Source: Carallia brachiata | Lineage: Eukaryota > Streptophyta > Magnoliopsida > Malpighiales > Rhizophoraceae | NCBI GenBank assembly: GCA_021464245.1 | Contig: JADCRB010000002.1 | Location: 4,214,795 to 4,278,794, forward strand | Direction: 5' to 3' | Length of the DNA: 64,000 nucleotides | Part shown: positions 716 to 11,330 of the stretch, piece after piece | How the letters are laid out: the number at the start of each line of letters is the position of its first letter | How positions within the stretch are numbered: position 1 is the first letter of the stretch | The notes under the pieces: model-generated | The model's database searches: none | Told to the model about the DNA's origin: nothing | What the model saw: only the letters and a program-made list of their open reading frames with translations | Position numbers and translations under genes: made by a program

Positions 716-1541
716 TCTAACGGGCGTAAATTTTGAGTCTACAACAGTTAGAATCGAAAATATAAACAATAAATTACAAAAAAAAATTAAAATAAAAGAA
801 AATTTACGTGGGTCGATTTTCGTGATTCTTCCGATTAGTGTTCCTTTATGACTTCTGTCAAGAGTTACTCGAACTTCATTTTGACAGCAATAAATTCCAC
901 AGTTTTATCTTGAACTTCGTATACTGAAACTAGATCTGATGTAGACATTGAGATTACAGTTAAAAACCGCAGAGACCTGATTTGAGCCGATCTGTCTTAA
1001 TTTCACCGATGGTCGAAGGGACTTGTTTTCGGATGAGCTGCTTGGATTTTGTTGAGCCGTAAGAGGCTTGATCTCAATCGTATTTGTAATATTTTGATAT
1101 TTTTAGATTTATATTATCATAAATTCAGATTTACAGCGATCAGAGAATATAAACCAAAAAATAACTTTAGAAATAGAAACAACAAATTTTATGGGTTTAC
1201 ACCTGAAATATCTCTAAACAAGGAGTTAGGAGAGTATACTGCAGAGTAAAAAAACGTAGAAAAAAGAGAAATTTTGTTAAGAAATTTTCAAAATTTTCTT
1301 TTCTCTCAAGTTCTATGTATTTTTCTATTTGTAGATTTGCTAAATATGTTTTGAACTGGAGAGCGAAGGCCTATTTATAGGGCTATTTTCTCATGTGAAA
1401 ATCACATGGGAAAGGAATAAAACTTTTCTTCTGCGTCGACGTTGCCAATTTTAGCCGACATTGACTTCTTTTTCTTTTTTTTTTTTCTTTTCTAGAAGCT
1501 GAGTTTTCTTTTTTTTTTTTTAATATTTACAAATGCCCCCA
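716..1541 (-). repeat. 3' LTR of the Tat-type element
   Basis: It aligns with 8674-9366 from the CGTAAATTT stretch through the GAAGCTGA stretch near 1495. Its inner end (GCCCCCA, 1535-1541) is the complement of the TGGGGGC start common at plant gypsy LTRs. The outer terminus reads TC where TG is expected. It contains about 110 bases (1305-1430) absent from the other LTR, and many substitutions separate the two, so the insertion is old. Confidence 0.8.
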
Positions 1542-2425
1542 CTTCAAGGGTTGGTAAAGAAGAACTTTGCAGACGTAATTCGAACCGAGTCTTGAAATCC
1601 AGTTTGAAACTTGAGATATCATGATAGATATTGAATGTTGAAATCTTCTATCTTCGGCTAGCCCAACTGTTGTTGGATCTCAATAAGAAACAGGTATTGA
1701 GAAAGTTAGCAGCCCAACCAATATAAAAATTGAAATATTGGCTCTAGGTGAGGTCGAGTTTTTATAGCTCGCAAAATTTTTTATAAGTTTTAAAGTTCCA
1801 TGGCTCCAGTGAGGATGATCTAGTAGATAAAGAACTTAAATCTCCTCATGAGGAAGGTCCAAGACTATAGAACTTCAAGACTTGCACACAGAGAAACGGG
1901 CTGTAATGATGATTTCTGAGTCTGCTCCGACGTAAGGAGAGTAGTTGGAACTTCCCTGTACGTCTGCGCATCTAAAGGAAGATGAGAATAATTGCAGCTT
2001 CTCATCTCTTTGTGGTAGATGTGAACTAATTAGAGTGGTTAGAACTCCATGACATCGATGACGTTGGAGACTGAGTTTCGAGGGATCCCTAAAAGCCCTC
2101 GAGGAGAAACTACTCCTTCTTTTTTTGGCTCGTGCGCCTTCAACTTCTTGATCAAAGAACTTCCTGAGATAAATGTAGAGACTAGCCATTTTCTTTTTGA
2201 GAAAAAGAAGAGTTTAGGGATAAGTGTTATAACTCGGGTATGCAGGATATATATACATATATTAAAGAGTTTTCTTTTTTTTTTTGAAATATTAAAAAGA
2301 AGGTACGTCGAATCGAGTAGAGTCCTCCACAAGCCTTTCCCTCATAAGAGATAAAAGAGACAACGACTGACGCGCGTCACAGAAGTCGTTACCGTGTGCT
2401 GCCAAAGTCGTTGCACCTTATCTTG
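1542..2425 (-). other. Tat element 3' internal region, no recognisable gene
   Basis: This lies between the homeobox pseudogene and the 3' LTR. Short open stretches occur on both strands at 1875-2354, but they overlap one another, have no family motif I recognise, and are best read as non-coding 3' region of the element. Confidence 0.5.
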
Positions 2426-3022
2426 TCAGCCGTCCTGGTGGGGCCTGAGGCGTAGCTCCAACTCAAGTCTGGCCTCGTCTGGTGGGCTGATGATGTTGAC
2501 ATCGCTGGAGCCTTCCAGCTAGTTGATGCTGCTGGAATATTCTAGAAATAGAGGCAAAGTTTCACCTGAATGACTTCATTTTGTTAGAAAATTTCCTCCT
2601 GAAGTTAAGTACTTAGGAGGGATAAATCTTCGACTGACTTCGTAAGACCTACGGCTTTGATCGTTATAGCCTGAAGAGACCATTGCAGTGGTAGAACTTA
2701 GACCTGTTTCATTTGAGGGCGAACTTGTATTGGTGGAATCTACTATCGGAACGGCAGACTGTACTTTGAAAAAAATAGTTCTCAGTGCTATTTTCTTCCT
2801 ATTTCTCTGATTTTGTAACCAATAAAACACATATTTTCCTTTGATTGCCACAAGCGGGCGCAATTGTGAGACAAGTTGGTAAATCTGAGATATATTAAGA
2901 ATAATACCTCCATTGTTGTGAAAGACTTCCTCCAAAATTTACAGTTGTGCCATAGTTGGTTGCCAGCTTGTGCGGGGTGACCTTTCTTCTCTCTTGTCTT
3001 GAGGTTCTGCAATTGGTTCCAT
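2426..3022 (-). pseudogene. WUSCHEL-type homeobox (WOX) pseudogene inside a retrotransposon
   Basis: Reading from the ATG at 3022, one frame carries all three hallmarks of a WUS-clade WOX protein. The homeodomain is at codons 17-77 (2792-2974): W-Q-P-T, then I-L-E-E, G-G-I-I, and recognition helix VFYWLQNQRNRKK where the family has VFYWFQNHKAR. A WUS-box GETLPLFLE is at 2540-2566 (consensus TLxLFP, with Pro replaced by Leu). An EAR-like LELELRL repressor motif is at 2447-2467. WOX proteins are nuclear transcription factors that maintain stem cells. The frame is broken by TAA at codon 28, TGA at 2576-2578 and a TAG near 2520. No intron separates homeodomain and WUS-box, unlike WUS genes, which suggests capture as RNA. 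It shares the strand of the host element and lies between integrase and 3' LTR. Recognition is by motif, not by alignment. Confidence 0.75.
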
Positions 3023-3149
3023 CTTTCTTGTAGCAGAGGAGCAAAGGTCTAGTATATGGTAAAGATCGGTTGAGACTGAGGCTGGGTTTCAGACTCAAAC
3101 CCTCCGTCACTTTTATATTTTTTTTGTTTAGTTCACAGTTTATACTCAT

Positions 3150-3495
3150 ACGGGACAGAAGTTGGATTGGATTTTGAACTTGGGTTCTGGACTTGCGTCT
3201 AGAACTTGGGATTTTTGGGTTTTGGGTTTTAGATTGGATTTGGGTTTTTGGGCTTAGGTTTTGTGTATGGGTTTTAAATTGTACTTGAGTTTTTGGGTTT
3301 TCTTGATTTGGGCTTTTAGATTTGGGTAGAGTTTTTGGGCTTTTGGACTTGGACTTTTTGAATTTGGGTCAAGTGTTTGGGTTTTGGATATAGACTTGGT
3401 TTTCAGGCTTTAGAGTTGGGCTTGAGTTTTCTGATTTGAGCTTAGATTTTCGAGTTTAGATTTTCGCTTGGACTTTCAGATCGGGACTTCCGAAT
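3150..3495. repeat. GGGTTTT/GGCTTTT-rich degenerate tandem array
   Basis: About 340 bases of repeated TTTGGG-T/C-TTTTGG-like words with variable spacers, followed by a long T-rich run (3497-3550). It has no coding potential. It sits in the 3' internal region of the Tat element, where this lineage is known to accumulate tandem repeats. The words are not the plant telomere repeat TTTAGGG. Confidence 0.6.
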
Positions 3496-3589
3496 TCTTT
3501 TTTTTTTTTTTTTTCTTTTCTTCTTTTTTTTTATTTTTTTTATTTTTTTAACATATTTACACGTAATACTGCTTCAGAAATTTACCATT

Positions 3590-4578
3590 GATTGGGCCAA
3601 TTTGAACGTCTTCTTAGTCTAACAGCATGTAATCGTTGTGAGTATAGACCTTCTGTACTAAGTATGGTCCGTCCTATTTAGAACTAAGCTTGTCATCAGG
3701 CCGATGTTTCATGTTGATGGGCCGTTGTACTGTAAGAATAAGGTTTCCAACTTGAAAAGATCGAGGGCGAACCCTGCGGTTGAACGTGTTGGTGAGCCGG
3801 GCTTGGTAGTATTCAAGTTGCTATTGTGCTTTGAGTCTCCTTTCATCAAGGGCTTCTAACTCATCCAGATGTAGGCGAGCATTTTCCTCATGTGTGAGTC
3901 CTTTCAGGACAACCATGCGCAAAGATGGAATCTGTGTTTCCAACGGCAGTATTGTTTCGACACCGTAGACAAGTGAGTATGGCATCGCCTGTGTTGGAGT
4001 CTGGTAAGTTGAACGATACGCCCGTAATGCCTCCAGAATTCTGTTATGCTAATCTCTTTTTTTTTAAAAACTACCTTTTGCAATAGGTTGTCTAAGGTCT
4101 TATTGAATGCTTCAGCCAAACCATTAGCCGGGGCATTATACATTGATGACTTTTACTGCTTGAACTTGAACTTATCGTAGATTTTGTCGATCAAGCTGTT
4201 GTAGAACTACTGGCCATTATCAGTGATGATGAATTGAGGGACTCCATAACGATAGATGAGCTGAGTCCGGATGAAATTGGCAACATGCTCCTTCTTTACC
4301 TCTCTAAGTTGAATAGCTTCGGCCCATTTTGAGAAGTAGTTTGTTACTGAGAGGATGTAAAGGTGATCCAAGGATAACTTTGGCAAGGGCCCCATTATGT
4401 CTGCACCAGCATCATCACGCTTTGCGGCACCATCAAAGAACATCGTCCATGGTGGCAGTGTCTCAATGTAAAAGACCTCTTCATCGGGAAGATCATCTAT
4501 GAGCTTCCGATTGGAGGGGACAGGGTGATCTACAAGGAAGTCTGCTAGAGTTTGTCCTTTGACTGCTTTTTGAGGCAC
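3590..4578 (-). pseudogene. Tat-type RNase H/integrase remnant
   Basis: The first part (4578 to about 4400) ends the RT-linked RNase H (QTLADFLVDHPVP) and starts the second RNase H (MFFDGAAKRDDAGA). The frame then passes directly into the integrase core (DIMGPLPK, VTNYFSKWAEA, YGVPQFIITDNGQ), so most of the second RNase H and the integrase zinc-binding region have been deleted. The core continues at 3904-4143 with YNAPANGLAEAFNKTL in a shifted frame. The C-terminal domain at 3590-3900 reads YQARLTNTFNRRVRPRSFQ and DGPYLVQKVY with stops. Integrase would insert the DNA copy into chromosomes; this one is dead. Confidence 0.8.
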
Positions 4579-4589
4579 GTAGACAATGT

Positions 4590-5115
4590 TATAACTCTAT
4601 AAAATTACTGCCCACTTGGCAAGTCTTCCTAATAAGATTGGTTTAGATAAGATATATTTGATAGGATCAGTTCTGGCAATGAGACGTACCGTGTGAGCCT
4701 ATATGTAATGCCTCAGCTTATCAATGGCGAAGAATAGTGCTAGACATGTTTTTTCAATGGGCGAATAGTTTATCTCTGGACAATACTTCGTTGCCTGTTG
4801 TTATATCAACTGTGATCTCCGTTATGGGCAACGAAAAATCATCTTCGGGACAGGCCCTGTTAAGATCTCGAAAGTCAACACATACCCTTAGCTGTCCATT
4901 CTTCTTTCTTACCGGGACTATGTTGGCAATTCACGTTGGGTAGGTGACCTCTCGAATGAAGCCGGCATTGATCAGCTTGTTGACCTCCTCCTCTATTTGT
5001 GGAATGAATTCCGAGCGGAACCGTCGTTGTGGCTACTTGACAAGACGAACACCTTTCTTTACTGCTAAGCGGTGCATCGCAATCTTTGGGTTAAGTCTAG
5101 ACATTTTTTTGTAAC
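4590..5115 (-). pseudogene. Reverse transcriptase remnant with deleted active site
   Basis: Reading minus from about 5110, the N-terminal fingers of a gypsy reverse transcriptase are visible: EEEVNKLINAGFIREV, then IVPVRKKNGQLRVCVDFRDLN and LPITEITVDITTG. The sequence then jumps to the RNase H region (SPIEKTCLALFFAIDKLRHYI, ending in VPQKAVKG near 4570). The whole palm with the catalytic YxDD motif is missing, and several stops are present. The internal deletion alone rules out activity. Confidence 0.8.
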
Positions 5116-5906
5116 TCCATACGAACACGTCCCTGTATTGACTTAATACCTGAACATATTCTTGCTCTTCTTCTACAGTAAGTAAAGCACTTACAAATGT
5201 AGGTCGGGGATCTTCCGAAGAGTTAAGATTGACCTCCTCGAGTTCATCAACAGTTGCTTGGCCACCATCTTCAAGTTCCAGGGGAGCCTCCCTTACTTCG
5301 CTGTCGGATAAGTAGGAATCAGCCTCCTCGCTAATTGTGACATGAAATGTAGAGCCCCTGACTTTGCTTCTTTGTTTGATAGGATAAGCCTGTTTTGTTT
5401 GGTGGTAATGGTGATGGAACGTTCATCGGCTGCTCGGCTTCGGCTCTTTAGCATGATCCGCACTGGTGACTTCTCTTGATAGTCTAAGCCGGTTCAGAAC
5501 TGTGATGATTGAGAAGTGGTGCCATGTGTGGATGGCAACGTACTCACTGTGCTCGCCTTTGAGAAGTCATAGTCTGCCTTAGCCAAGAGCTTGTATGCAT
5601 TAGGATCGAATCCTTCGTGTGTTCTTCTTTCTGGAAGTGAGCCATCTTCGACTGCCTCTATAAGTGGTCTAACGAAGCCTTTTAATGGTTTTGAGGAAAA
5701 AACTGGCTCAATCTTTGGTATCGACAGGTGTAAGTCATTTAAGTTGTGCAGTTCTTTTGTCTTACGTTGGGTGTGCCTTACTCCTGTTTAGGATCAATAC
5801 AATAAGAGAAAGGAAGTTGACATTCTAGGCGTTGTGACTTTGGTATATAGCGTAGGACTGGAGTGGAGCTCGAAGATGCAACATCCTTCAGGCGAAGTTC
5901 AGCAGG

Positions 5907-7052
5907 CTATGACAGCTTGTCATTTGTCGGAGCCTGAGATTGAGCATTAGCAGGGTCTTCAACAGCTTTTCCCTTTTTGTGGATGCCCCAAGTCCAAGTA
6001 GCTTTTGATGGAATGATTTCTAGATTGTCTGTGTCGGTGTCGAAGACTGCATGTGCCAAATGTGATTCAGCATCATCAAACGGCTTTAAGTCAGCATTAA
6101 CCTTTTGAACGTCATTATTGTAGTACTTGAAGCATTGATGCAGACTTGAGAGCACAACTCCATTTCTATGAATCTATGGTCGTCCTAGTAGCATCTTATA
6201 CGTAGTACGTGCATCGATTACATGAAATAAAGTGCTAGAAGTGAGATTATTGATAGTCAGCTTTAAGCGAATCATTCCAATTGCTTTCTGTCCTCCTTGA
6301 TTAAAGCCATAAATCATCAAGCGGTTTTCTGATAACTCATCAATGCCGATGTCGAACTCCTTTATGGTGGATTTTGGGATAATATTGACTGCCGAGCCAT
6401 TGTTGATCAGAAAATGTTGGATCTTCTGTTCTCTCACATAGCCTGATACATACAGCGGCCGATTATAGGGTTTGGACCCCAACAAGAAATCCTCATCTGA
6501 AAATGAGATAGTGGAATAACATCTGACGTTATTTTGGGTCGTCCGATACTCCGTTGAGCTGGAATTACTCGATGGAAGAGATCCAGCTGAGGTATGGAGA
6601 GTGTTGCTGACTTGGTTCTGCCATACTTCTGTTAATTGTAAAGTTACAAATAACTGAGGGTTAGCGAGAAGAGTTTGAAGAGTTTCATATACCTTCTCAA
6701 TTGTCGACTTTTTGTCATTGAACGGTTCCTTCTTATGGTGTGTCGCCTTTTCTGATGGATTTGAAGTAATAGTGGTCTGGTTTGCCGAGATTATGCGTTC
6801 TTGGTCCAAAATGATTTTATTCTGGCTCTTGAACTTCATGATTAGCTTCTTCAAAACAAAACATTTCCCAGTTGGATGACTTACTATGCAGTGATATTTA
6901 CAGAATTTTGGATCGCTGACTCGATCCTTTTCATTGGGGCACTTGCATTCTGGGAGTTCGATCAATTTCACATCCAAGAGTTGGTCAAGAATGTCTGGGA
7001 CATCTGAGTTGGGAAATAGATATCGCTTCTGCTCCAACTCTCGCAATGTCAC
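5907..7052 (-). pseudogene. gag C-terminus and retropepsin-like protease remnant
   Basis: The upstream part (about 6850-6950) carries the C-x2-H-x4-H-x4-C knuckle typical of Tat-type gag, seen as FCKYHCIVSHPTGKCFVLKK. About 200 residues downstream is the protease: HFLINNGSAVNIIPKST, ending with YKMLLGRP near 6175. Active retropepsins have Asp-Ser/Asn/Thr-Gly at this place; here the Asp is Asn, so catalysis would be lost even without other damage. An in-frame stop separates the following linker (5907-6155) before reverse transcriptase. The enzyme would normally cut the gag-pol polyprotein. Confidence 0.75.
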
Positions 7053-7218
7053 ATTCCATCTTTCCTATTGTTTTGGTTGAATTATTTGAGTCGGAGGATT
7101 TACCTTAACTTTAGTTCCCACTTTTACTGGTGCGACTTCAACAGTCATCACTTCTTTCCTTTTTCTTGAGCTGTTGAGTTTCTTAATATCCCTTCTGCCT
7201 CCTTAATGGTCTAGTTGG

Positions 7219-8466
7219 ATGGGAATCGTGCCCCCGGAAGTCTGGATGCTTATCTTCATATTATGTGCGCGGGTCGTTAGTTCTTCGAAGGTTTGGGATT
7301 TGATGCCCTGCAGGATGTATAACAGCTCTCAATGCATTCCCCGGATGCACATCTCTACGGCAGAAGTCTCTGTCAGGCGATCTTTGCAATACAAACTGAG
7401 GGCACACTATTTATTGATGTATTCAACAATGGGCTCTCCTTTCCTTTGTTTAGTGCTAATAAGTTCTATCATATTTACTGTCCTTCGAGTGCTGAAAAAT
7501 TGTTGAAGAACTCTCGTTGTAACTATTCCCAACTATCGATCGATTCTAGTTCAAGATTTATGAACTAGGTGAAAGTGGTCTCCCTGAGTGAACGAACAAA
7601 CTGCTTTCACCAAGAGATCTCTGTAAGTCCCTACATTGTTGCAGGTTTCAACGAAGTGGGCGATGTACTGTTTGGGATCGTCTCGTCCGTCGAATTGTTG
7701 AAATTTAGGCGGCTGGTAGCCCAAAGGCATGTTGAGACTTTCGATCCGTCTGGTATACAGTTTGACGTACATCTGTGATCCTTGGAAGGATGTAGCTTGT
7801 TGCATGCGGATCGTATTAGCTATCATTTCCTACAATTGTTGAACAGATAACGAAACTACAGAATTTGAGGGTGGCAGTTGTGTAGAACTACCTGGTTGCT
7901 TTTCTGCAGTGAAGACGTCGGCTTGTGTGGCTTCTAGAGTGAAACCGGTTGGATATGGTTGCTCCTCGCGAATTTCAGGATCAATTTGGATCGGGGCTGT
8001 TCCTTTAAGGGCGACGATCTGTTGATATTTTTCCTCCACTACTCTGATTAGCTGCAAAATCTTGTTCTCCAATTTTGCAATCCTTTCTTCTATGCTGGTT
8101 GTGTTGGTCATCATAATGACAACAGATGAGGCTTGCGAAGGACTGGGGTAGAGGATTCCTCTGATTCTTCTGTGTGGATCTCTACAGAATGAGTCGGATT
8201 TTGTTGAGCAGGCTTTGTCGTGTTGCCCTCGACTTCAATCAGTGTGGGTGATCGACTTCTCCATGCGGCAAGAGAGTCAGGGAAGAGATCCTATTACTAT
8301 GCGAGCTGTGGACTCTTCGTTTCGATATTTTGTCGGATTTGGACGGTGAGAAATGATGTCCGTCCACAAGTTCCTGAGTCTGCGTACTTAGGTAGGGTAG
8401 TTGATGCAGGCAGTGGAACAGTTGCCTTCTTATTGGTACTGGCCGCTGTACTTCTCTTTGGTGTCA
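7219..8466 (-). pseudogene. Tat-type gag remnant
   Basis: Gag forms the virus-like particle of the retrotransposon. The likely start is at 8466 (MTPKRSTAASTNKKATVPLP). A coiled, charged stretch follows at 7830-8114 (IEERIAKLENKILQLIRVVEE). The conserved gag core reads MPLGYQPPKFQQFDGRDDPK and AHFVETCNNVGTYRDLLVKA at 7600-7740. A stop at 7827-7829 separates the last two parts, and the frame breaks again beyond 7551. Order and strand fit the protease, RT and integrase remnants that follow. No intact gag can be made. Confidence 0.75.
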
Positions 8467-8673: not shown

Positions 8674-9366
8674 TGTAATGACCGTAAATTTCAAGCCTGC
8701 AACAGTTAGACTCGAAAATATAAAAAACAAATTACAAATAAAAATTTAAAATAAAAGAAAATTTACGTGAGGTCGATCTTCGTGATTCCTTTAATTAGTG
8801 TTCTTTTGTGATTCCTGTCAAGAGCTACTCGAGTTTGATTTTGACAGCAATAAATTTCACAACTTTATTTTGAATTGGGTAAACTAAAACTGGATCTAAT
8901 GTAGACGTTTAGATTACGGTTAAGAACCGTAGAGATCTGATCTGAGCCAATCTGACTTAATTTCACCGAGAGTCGAAAGAACTTGTTATTAGATGAACTG
9001 TTTGGATTTTGTTAAGGGCTGTATGAGACTTGATCTCAATTGGATTTGTAATATTTTGATATTTTTAGATTTATATTCTCATAAATTCAGATTTAAAGTG
9101 ATCAAAAAATATAAACCCAAACATAATCTTAGAAATGGAAACAGCAAATTTTTTGGAATTTACATCTGAAATATCTCTAAAAAAAGAGTTAGGAGAGTAT
9201 ACTGCAAAGTAAAAACACGTAGAAAAAGTAAAAATTTCTTAAAAAATTTTTAAAATTTCCTTTTTCTCTCGAATTCTGCGTTGCCAATTTTGAAATTGGC
9301 AACGCCGACATTGACTTCCTTTTTTTATTTTTCTTTTAGAAGCTGACTTTTTTTTTTATGTCTATA
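8674..9366 (-). repeat. 5' LTR of the Tat-type element
   Basis: The partner of 716-1541, beginning TGTAATGACCGTAAATTT on plus. It lacks about 110 bases present in the other LTR and ends in ATGTCTATA rather than the expected TACAAATGCCCCCA terminus. This end has been trimmed or rearranged next to the target duplication at 9367-9371. Confidence 0.75.
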
Positions 9367-9489
9367 ATTAATTATATAATCTTGCATAATAATATATAAC
9401 ATTTTATTTATATTTTTTTTATAAATTCTATCTTTCAATAATTCATAGAAAAAAATAATTTATATCATTTTATTTCAAATCCACCTTTA

Positions 9490-9647
9490 GAAGTGCCTGT
9501 AGCCAATTTCTATGGCTTGGAGCACAGATTGCTTCACTGCTTCATTTCTGGAACCGAATGCGAAGTCTGCAGTGCCAAAGCCTATTAGAGGAATTGTTTT
9601 CCCAGTTGAGCCCAAAGGGGCTTCTGGAATATTGATCGACTTTGCCA
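9490..9647 (-). pseudogene. Aldo-keto reductase exon-1 fragment, copy A
   Basis: From the ATG at 9647 the minus strand encodes an AKR4-type N-terminus ([19 protein letters not shown], ending IEIGYRHF), about 53 codons, nearly identical to exon 1 of the copy at 37061-37386. The sequence breaks off after the HF of the NADPH-site motif YRHFDTA and runs into AT-rich upstream-type repeat instead of the rest of exon 1. It therefore lacks the catalytic Asp-Tyr-Lys-His residues. It sits in tandem unit A, followed on the plus strand by a LINE tail. Confidence 0.85.
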
Positions 9648-9707
9648 TTTTCTTATTTATGTTGTTGCATGGTTCTAATTACAAATGCCTGGAGTCCATG
9701 ACTGGCA

Positions 9708-10020
9708 TCCTAGCAATTGGTGGAAGCAACATCATCATTGACAGTGATTGTCGGGATATTTTTTACAAACTAATAGCCAAACCACAGGATTGGCAGTGTA
9801 CCATAACACCTGTTTTTGTGGGATATTTATAGAATTTTACAGTCCATGAACAATTACTTTTGTTATATTATATGTAAACTATTTAATAAAGTAATAGATT
9901 GGGTCACAAATCAATTTTTATCAGTACTCTATTCTGTGAATTGGGTTAGCAATCTTTCATCTAACCTTCAATTTTTGTTGTTTGTAGACTTTTTACATTA
10001 ATAAATATAGTTTTATTCCT
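9708..10020 (+). pseudogene. LINE RNase H C-terminus and 3' tail, copy A
   Basis: The plus strand reads AIGGSNIIIDSDCRDIFYKL, and after a frame change NKVIDWVTNQFL and VNWVSNLSSNLQFLLFVDFLH. This is the C-terminal half of the RNase H-like domain found in plant L1-type LINEs and related reverse-transcriptase proteins. It ends in a short A-rich tail (10007-10025). It lies between the AKR fragment and tandem unit B, and a second copy is at 11081-11330. Confidence 0.7.
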
Positions 10021-10834
10021 TTTATCAAAAAATTTTTTTAGATATATATATATATATATATAGGATTACGTGTATCAGAAATATTACTCTTTGTATAAAT
10101 ATTAGCCAAGGTTAGGTGTCATTTCTTTCAACTCAAATCAAAATAAAATTAAAGTGACGTAAATTTGTTATAGTATTTAATTTAAAAAAATTAAATAAAT
10201 TATTATATATTATTAAATAAAGTGAATATAACTATTTTAATATTACCTAAAATGCAATCATATTGTGAAAGTGTCAATTTTTATGTAGTACTTAGTCTAC
10301 TAACAAATCCAGTTAACAAATAGCAAGGCACAAGGCCTGTACTCCAAAGAGTGGATTGCATACTTTCAAATCGATGGTAATAATTAGTTATATAATCTTG
10401 TATAATGATATATAATATTTTATTTATATTTTTTTTATGAATTCTATCTTTCAATAATCCATAGAAAAAAATAATTTACATCATTTTATTTTAATTTCAA
10501 AATTATATCTAAATAAAGCCACTGTACTTTTTCTCCTTATAAATTGGGCCGGTTAGTTTTTTTTTTATTTTTTTATTTTTTTTCTTGTTGACATCTATTC
10601 TCATTCAATTTTTTTTTTTTTTTTACAATTTTTCTAAACCTAAACCAGCTAATTGGGGAGAGGAATAGTTGGGGAAATCCAAGATTCGAACCCTTACCTT
10701 GATAGTAATGATTAGTTTTATAATCTTGTATAATGATATATAACATTTTATTTATATTTTTTTTTATAAATTCTATCTTTCAATAATCCATAGAAAAAAA
10801 TCATTTGTATCATTTTATTTCAAATCAGTCTTTA
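10021..10834. repeat. Tandem unit B, AKR upstream sequence
   Basis: A direct repeat of 1-715 plus 9367-9489 without the LTR element. It contains two internal copies of a roughly 110-base block (near 10384-10495 and 10712-10825), starting TATAATCTTGTATAATGATA and ending in a TTTATTTCAA stretch, as unit A also does. Confidence 0.8.
10554..10705 (-). mobile_element. SINE-like fragment, unit B copy
   Basis: The counterpart of 541-711: minus-strand B-box-like GGGTTCGAATCTTGG and an A-rich tail. It was present before the unit duplicated. Confidence 0.4.
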
Positions 10835-10989
10835 GAAGTGCCTGTAGCCAATTTCTATAGCTTGGAGCACAGATTGCTTCACTGCTTCATTTCTGGAGCC
10901 GAATGGGAAGTCTGCTGTGCCAAAGCCTATTAGAGGAATTGTTTTCCCAGTTGAGCCCAAAGGGGCTTCTGGAATATCGTCTTTGCCAA
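10835..10989 (-). pseudogene. Aldo-keto reductase exon-1 fragment, copy B
   Basis: The same exon-1 fragment as 9490-9647 and with the same break after the YRHF stretch. In this copy the start codon has become TTG (10987-10989) and the first codons carry a small deletion, so no AKR start remains. Because the truncation point is shared by both copies, the break predates the tandem duplication. Confidence 0.85.
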
Positions 10990-11080
10990 TTTCTTATTTA
11001 TGTTGTTGCATAGATCTAATTACAAATGCCTTGGAGTCCATGACTGGCATCCAAGGTTACATATATATATTTTTTTTAGC

Positions 11081-11330
11081 AATTGGTGGAAGCAACATCA
11101 TCGTTGAAAGTGATTGTCGGGATATTTTTTGCAAACTAATAGCCAAACCAGAGGACTGACAGTGGACCATAACACTTGTTTTGTGGGATATTTGTAGAAT
11201 CTTACAGTCTATGAACAACTATTTTTATTATGTTATTTATATTAGTTAATAAAGTAGTGGATTAGATCACAAATTAATTTTTATTAAAACTCTGTTCTGT
11301 AGATTGAATTAATAATCCTTTATTTTTAAA
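11081..11330 (+). pseudogene. LINE RNase H C-terminus, copy B
   Basis: The plus strand reads LAIGGSNIIVESDCRDIFCK and AKPED, then meets a stop where copy A reads on. The body and 3' part match 9708-10000. Downstream the A-rich stretch near 11320 joins AKR far-upstream sequence shared with 39385. Confidence 0.65.

Follow-up and report, generated by a model that had tools for sequence, protein, structure and literature searches.

A WUSCHEL-type homeobox gene in a Tat retrotransposon family of Carallia brachiata, apparently kept as an accessory gene

The Carallia brachiata assembly (337.5 Mb in 164 contigs) contains, on the minus strand of a 64,000-nucleotide stretch of contig JADCRB010000002.1, positions 4,214,795–4,278,794, that we call the window, a long terminal repeat (LTR) retrotransposon carrying an open reading frame (ORF) of the WUSCHEL (WUS) type, related to the WOX homeobox genes (2426–3022). 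The frame lies in sense with the element, downstream of the integrase end at 3561 and upstream of the 3' LTR, as an earlier note made from the sequence of this stretch had proposed, and its position is constant in the copies that we examined elsewhere in the genome. The best reading of these comparisons is that the WOX gene, hereafter retro-WOX, is a fixed accessory gene of the element lineage, present in hundreds of copies. The copy in the window itself is decayed and dead.

A homeodomain protein of the WUS type

Translation of 3022–2426 on the minus strand yields a single frame, 199 codons long, that contains SWQPTMAQL*ILEEVFHNN (asterisk, stop), KGKYVFYWLQNQRNRKK, ETLPLFLE and LELELRL in this order. 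The earlier note had described a homeodomain, a WUS-box and an EAR-like motif in order in a single frame, and the translation agrees; three internal stops (2939–2941, 2576–2578 and 2519–2521), which it did not mention, precede the terminal one (2426–2428). The homeodomain part, delimited by translation and by alignment to the WUSCHEL structure 6ry3, spans 2792–2974 and contains the first stop; here, S stands at the position of WUS R38 and L at that of F88. The WUS-box relic ETLPLFLE (2540–2563) and the EAR-like LELELRL (2447–2467) were placed by translation and by an alignment of other copies (A1). For both motifs we use the customary definitions, TL.LF and LxLxL.

A 120-amino-acid open piece of the window copy matches 6ry3 with an E-value of 1.5e-5. 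In the profile search that the earlier note had suggested as a check, this piece stays below the Pfam cut-off for the homeodomain (16.1 against 22.9 bits), whereas three copies elsewhere in the genome exceed it for PF00046 with 41.6 (copy L005), 35.2 and 39.0 bits. The intact copy L005 aligns to 6ry3 over 64 residues without a gap (E 3.1e-16) and retains R38, Q89, N90 and R94, the base-reading residues of WUS, together with the docking residue W39, with roles as given in PMC7203112 (here and below, PMC numbers refer to excerpts of the respective papers). The one-residue insertion that WUS carries at the end of helix 1 (Y54 type) is filled in L005, and alignment to STENOFOLIA requires a one-residue gap where alignment to WUS requires none. 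TL.LF is present in seven of the nine A1 rows that span the WUS-box (TLPLF in six, TLSLF in one), and all nine rows that extend to the C-terminus end in LDLELRL or variants of it.

Comparison at the level of structure and profile is congruent with these motifs. Searching the PDB with an AlphaFold2 model (mean predicted local distance difference test score, pLDDT, 48 overall and about 70 in the homeodomain) by Foldseek returned WUS or STENOFOLIA homeodomains as all of the best 11 matches, three of them at E ≤ 0.001. A profile built from ten copies gave 353 protein matches; the best 120 of these all carry PF00046, and by manual count 57 are named WUSCHEL or WUSCHEL-like and one WOX7-like, the others bearing a shortened label without a WOX name. 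Because of the helix-1 indel, the motifs and the profile matches, we assign the predicted element protein to the homeodomain proteins of WUS type. The matches listed (nine for a single-copy query and the best 120 of 353 for the profile) comprised ordinary WOX/WUS proteins only, none of them close, and no relatives were found in viral contigs. Among the nearest cellular relatives are short WUS-like proteins of 145–161 amino acids, from Ipomoea and one further contig, with a helix 3 of NQR- or NQK-type.

A family across the genome

A degenerate GKNVFYWFQN pattern, allowing up to two mismatches, occurs at 842 sites of the whole genome (396 + 446), and the reversed control at none (0 + 0). At least nine of the sites are ordinary host WOX genes, and the others examined belong to one retrotransposon family. 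Likewise, the 150 best of 1727 first-look candidates all match a retro copy with 69–100% identity. The spread of WOX copies by a retrotransposon, raised as a possibility in the earlier note, is thus borne out.

The link to the element was followed from both sides. Starting from the first 100 of 720 integrase ends, 63 have a listed WOX match downstream on the same strand (59 as the exact motif 593–832 bp downstream, four via the similarity list); six of the remaining 37 were examined, and WOX is present in each of the six, with an internal deletion in one. In the reverse direction, an exact integrase end was found upstream of 60 of the 74 listed WOX sites on the same contigs. The order integrase, spacer, WOX is constant in the copies read upstream, and a 3' LTR follows WOX in the 13 usable LTR pairs described below. 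In L004, the sole copy read there, an additional RNase H directly precedes the integrase (RVT_3, 68.2 bits), and L002 contains an H2C2 domain (31.6 bits). This position of the additional RNase H is that of the angiosperm Tat elements (Ogre/Retand; PMC6317226). By its domain order, the element is a Tat-type Ty3/gypsy retrotransposon with an additional RNase H.

State and age of the copies

We compiled 53 distinct copies, eight taken by motif position in contig order and 45 by protein similarity (the window copy through the earlier note). Counted from the ATG, 15 of them have an ORF of 200 codons or more. In two of these (L006 and L055) the C-terminus is shifted, so that 13 of 53 copies count as intact, with ORFs of 203–208 codons. 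Related Tat elements with an intact version, for which the earlier note had suggested searching, therefore exist in this genome.

Twenty elements from the similarity lists were represented by their two end pieces. A plus-strand match was obtained for 15 of these pairs and none for the other five; after dropping L059/L060 (partial LTR match) and L069/L070 (not an LTR by its ends), 13 usable pairs remained, of which L053 is less clean, with the LTR sequence twice in its 3' piece. The two LTRs are 85.5–97.8% identical. Target-site duplications of 5 bp are readable in eight of the 13 (AGGAG, GTGTT, CTTAC, GTGGG, CAGAT, ATCTG, AGTTG and GAGAT) and not in the other five, so that the elements show the hallmarks of LTR retrotransposons: two LTRs with TG..CA ends, a polypurine tract and 5-bp duplications. 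Intact ORFs reside in the younger elements (seven intact versus six broken, Mann–Whitney p 0.001). Absolute ages of 0.9–6 or 3–20 million years, which presume substitution rates assumed by us, were not used.

Selection on the reading frame

The median pairwise ratio of nonsynonymous to synonymous rates (dN/dS) of the ORF is 0.50 across the 53 copies; it is 0.49 in 27 copies filtered to contain few masked codons and to be free of in-frame stops, and 0.51 in the others. Reading the 27 copies in shifted frames raised it to 0.72 (+1) and 1.06 (+2). Since such pairwise values blend a selected history with the decay of dead copies, we compared private with shared variants. The ratio of nonsynonymous to synonymous variants (N/S) in the ORF is 0.95 for singletons and 0.52 for variants common to at least five copies; in the homeodomain, the corresponding values are 1.17 and 0.31. 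Stops per site relative to synonymous variants fall from 0.90 among singletons to 0.36 among shared variants. The contrast of singletons with shared variants gave Fisher p-values of 0.003 (ORF) and 0.009 (homeodomain), where the shared class comprises variants in two to three and in at least five copies, with those in exactly four and the codons of the helix-3 motif left out; singletons against variants in at least five copies gave p 0.033 for the ORF. In a subset of 29 copies, N/S of the ORF is 0.45–0.57 for shared variants and 0.73 for singletons, and in the integrase of 23 of the same loci it is 0.00–0.15 for shared variants. Shared variants are depleted in amino-acid changes and private ones are not; therefore, the replicating lineage seems to keep the WOX protein, less strictly than the integrase.

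Conservation extends upstream of the coding sequence. Across the same 29 copies, the approximately 170 bp before the ATG have a pairwise identity of 0.91–0.95, compared with 0.89–0.96 for the homeodomain, 0.72–0.85 for the well-filled upstream spacer (−440 to −201) and 0.68–0.90 for the 3' untranslated region (UTR). The 29 copies were chosen by protein similarity (the window copy, again, through the earlier note), so that the homeodomain identity is flattered and that of the leader is not. TATAAAA occurs at −130 to −80 in 28 of the 29 copies. In the window, the leader corresponds to 3023–3190, with TATAAAA at 3111–3117, about 90–95 bp upstream of the WOX ATG. The conserved leader suggests an internal promoter or 5' UTR; as an alternative, it may represent a splice or packaging signal. 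A blastn search of the leader against the host WOX loci gave matches of only 15–16 nt.

Origin of the gene

The ORF of retro-WOX is continuous, without introns, as the earlier note had stated, whereas in a host WUS gene (L009) two introns separate the homeodomain from the WUS-box, at about 1808–1966 and 2068–2607 of its locus (exons assigned by eye). This difference is consistent with capture from a spliced transcript, and a capture via RNA is likely. In a homeodomain tree, ten retro copies form one clade (100/100) on a stem of 1.15–1.31 changes per site. When WOX10/11 rows are included, retro-WOX joins these with 95/85, a placement flagged as long branches meeting; without them it stands apart. 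A grouping of retro-WOX with WUS is not rejected by the approximately unbiased (AU) test (p 0.42 and 0.20). Given so long a stem, the capture seems to be old, and no particular gene can be singled out as the donor. Capture of a spliced WOX mRNA, the scenario of the earlier note, is consistent with the absence of introns, and the phylogeny it had called for returned a single clade of retro copies on this long stem. The best-scoring retro copies are 52–57% identical to the homeodomain of Arabidopsis WUS, and between the host WUS genes and copy L031 only 35 nt are shared (88.6% identity).

By homeodomain resemblance, the host has at least nine WOX loci, presumably to be named as two WUS, two WOX1-like, WOX2, WOX3, two WOX4 and WOX5. 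Two WUS genes are also found in Erythroxylum novogranatense, the source of the nearest full-length WUS match (64–66%), which points to a host from the Malpighiales. The earlier note had further raised WOX-derived small RNAs, and action of these on host WUS found no sufficient exact match. Five retro-WOX ORFs were compared with the nine host WOX loci. Exact matches reach at most 20 nt (one copy, WOX4a), followed by 17 nt (WOX4b) and 16 nt (WOX2); neither host WUS locus is among the eight best exact matches listed, which go down to 12 nt. This lack of long exact matches to host WUS leans against its cross-silencing by small RNAs, which we rejected.

Possible role of the element protein

On balance, we consider it probable that an old captured WUS-type gene is kept as a fixed accessory gene and that its product acts in trans on host cells. 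A Tat lineage would have acquired a spliced copy of a WUS-type WOX gene between integrase and 3' LTR long ago and kept it since. The ORF may be transcribed separately from its own internal promoter, and the protein would enter the nucleus as a WUS-like factor that binds DNA and recruits corepressors. Action in trans on host genes is the simplest assumption because the DNA-contact and corepressor motifs are kept and the gene has an accessory position in the element. Meristem cells, in which LTR elements can be transiently active, would be the place of action: in Arabidopsis vegetative stem cells, expression of transposable elements rises transiently, with LTR elements prominent (PMC7560203), and WUS takes part in excluding RNA virus from stem cells (PMC10589665). 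The protein could promote stem-cell identity or, alternatively, hamper defences that depend on WUS or on silencing; in either case, new insertions would be more likely to enter the germ line.

Several findings weigh against this reading. In identity, the tree does not put retro-WOX within WUS and joins it to WOX10/11 when those rows are included, the nine matches of the single-copy query include WOX2, WOX10 and WOX11 labels, the WUS-box differs from TLPLF in three of nine A1 rows (TLSLF, TLPLL and PLPLF), and confidence of the AlphaFold2 model is low outside the homeodomain. In selection, the ORF evolves faster than the integrase (shared N/S 0.45 versus 0.00), the contrast is weaker in the 29-copy subset (0.73 for singletons, 0.45 for variants in at least four copies), and the variant counts carry no correction for deamination of methylated cytosines. 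Most copies were chosen by protein similarity; among the eight chosen by motif position, none has an intact ORF, the ratio of nonsynonymous to synonymous polymorphism (pN/pS) is 0.61 (0.44–0.91) for the ORF, and for the homeodomain it is 0.40 (0.14–1.12), not separable from neutrality.

A more specific version, which we put forward tentatively and regard as rather unlikely, makes the gene a domesticated stem-cell regulator: the WUS-like protein, expressed from the internal promoter, would promote or keep stem-cell identity, or disarm a WUS-dependent defence, so that insertions would take place in the layer of cells from which the germ line arises. If true, the transposon would be directing the fate of host cells to secure its own inheritance.

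The gene might instead be a passenger, captured once and hitch-hiking with an ORF that has no role for the element. The state of the copies would suit such a history, with no ORF reaching 200 codons from the ATG in 38 of 53 and none of the eight motif-picked ones intact, as would selection weaker than on the integrase and a homeodomain compatible with neutrality in those eight alone. However, shared variants, unlike singletons, are poor in amino-acid changes and stops, the leader is conserved to the level of the homeodomain, and the reading frame, the key residues and the majority of the C-terminal motifs have persisted despite the long stem separating retro-WOX from other WOX genes. On balance, the comparison of shared with private variants leads us to reject this explanation as improbable.

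We see an equally small chance that the protein acts in cis, binding its own LTR or leader and tuning transcription of the element in the manner of a retroviral accessory regulator. The DNA-binding residues are retained, and a regulatory effect on retrotransposition has been proposed for antisense extra ORFs in other plant LTR elements (PMC7264820). In eight elements, none of TGAA, TAAT, tandem TGAA, TTAATGG and CACGTG is consistently enriched in the LTR relative to shuffled LTR sequence, which leans against self-regulation via WUS motifs. Within the 3' UTR of seven of the eight, tandem TGAA (0–2 sites) exceeds the shuffled mean.

More doubtful still is a decoy of host WUS, that is, a repressor that competes or dominantly interferes with WUS-dependent exclusion of viruses or transposons from stem cells. 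WUS is involved in the exclusion of RNA virus from stem cells (PMC10589665, which cites Wu 2020 for it), and the DNA-contact residues of WUS are kept in retro-WOX, with different neighbours in helix 3 (HKARER in WUS, RRSRKK here). However, an action of WUS on retrotransposons is not shown in the excerpts of PMC10589665.

Finally, a misreading of an unrelated Tat 3' frame, the outcome that the earlier note had named as fatal to its proposal, or of a host WOX gene invaded by elements, has only the broken window copy with its Pfam score below the cut-off in its favour and is hardly credible, given the homeodomain and 6ry3 matches of intact copies, the Foldseek matches, the empty motif control and the same integrase–WOX arrangement in many copies, which rule out both.

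Relation to known systems

Retroviruses have captured host transcription factors, as in v-myc and v-jun, and there too an LTR element carries a regulator of host cell fate. However, retroviruses of the acutely transforming kind tend to be defective and short-lived, whereas the retro-WOX family looks old and its gene fixed. Among extra ORFs of plant LTR retrotransposons, Steinbauerova et al. are said to list LOGL4-like and histone-H3-like cases; to our knowledge, no homeobox case is among them. Compared with WUSCHEL and the modern clade of WOX proteins, retro-WOX has the WUS-type extra residue, the WUS-box and the EAR-like C-terminus, but differs in helix 3 (NRRSRKK against NHKARER) and in being shorter, intronless, multicopy and on a long branch.

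The extra ORFs of Tat, Athila and SIRE elements resemble retro-WOX in lying between pol and 3' LTR, in sense, in most copies, in evolving fast and in the additional RNase H before the integrase (PMC7264820, PMC6317226). They differ in kind: those in sense are env-like and those in antisense lack clear relatives (PMC7264820), whereas here the gene encodes a predicted developmental transcription factor of plants. The extra-ORF survey in PMC6317226 required at least 250 codons, above the roughly 208 of retro-WOX, and 21.4% of its extra ORFs resemble a known domain. Gene transduction by plant LTR elements, as in maize Bs1 and others, likewise places a cellular gene in sense inside an LTR element, but the transduced genes are present in one or few copies (PMC7264820), whereas retro-WOX is present in hundreds, apparently under selection.

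In the open-licence PMC literature, searched by titles and the beginnings of abstracts, we found no report of a WOX gene in a retrotransposon among the papers listed. A term search of PMC13317346, PMC7264820 and PMC6317226 gave no mention of homeobox or WUSCHEL in the excerpts, and those of PMC6982007, PMC10400565 and PMC5501002 treat WOX genes and LTR elements separately, or as neighbours in cotton. Within this open-licence literature, a WOX gene fixed in a retrotransposon family is thus without a precedent that we could find. What the extra ORFs of plant LTR retrotransposons do is not settled, and here the predicted product is a homeodomain protein. Targets, partners and effects on the host cell are directly testable because it belongs to a well-studied family with solved DNA complexes. 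The case bears on how transposons gain access to the germ line in organisms that do not set it aside early. In addition, transposon copies can overwhelm a census of WOX genes in genomes of this kind.

Layout of the window copy

The element in the window reads on the minus strand. Its 3' LTR (716–1531) was delimited from the sequence and from direct repeats (D3, D10 and D11) with 8717–9277, and its 5' LTR (8674–9366) likewise; the two are identical at 542 of 688 aligned bases (79%). A polypurine tract (1532–1545, minus strand) adjoins the 3' LTR, and GAAGTGGGGGCATT or a close variant precedes the 3' LTR in other copies too. Between the WOX leader and the integrase lies a low-complexity spacer with short repeats (3190–3560, minus strand; repeat family D12 at 3206–3384), and a similar spacer is present in other copies. 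A-rich runs and degenerate repeats of about 42 bp make up this spacer (3190–3540 in the window), with an in-frame K/N/P/S-rich peptide in several copies.

The integrase remnant (3561–4596, minus strand) was recognized by its integrase-end pattern, with the C-terminal end at 3561; its rve score of 19.5 bits is below the Pfam cut-off, which copy L023 exceeds. Further upstream, broken stop-to-stop frames at 5033–8234 (minus strand) presumably represent gag, protease and the reverse-transcriptase side. They were assigned by eye, from known Tat motifs, because none of the four frames tested gave a Pfam match above cut-off.

The target-site duplication reads ATTAG at 711–715 and ATTAA at its partner, 9367–9371. 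Similar frames lie in the flank (9503–9832) and in a paralog of the flanking repeat (10848–11159). This paralog, at 10027–11323, corresponds to 12–715 and 9367–9960 without the insertion and represents a natural empty site.
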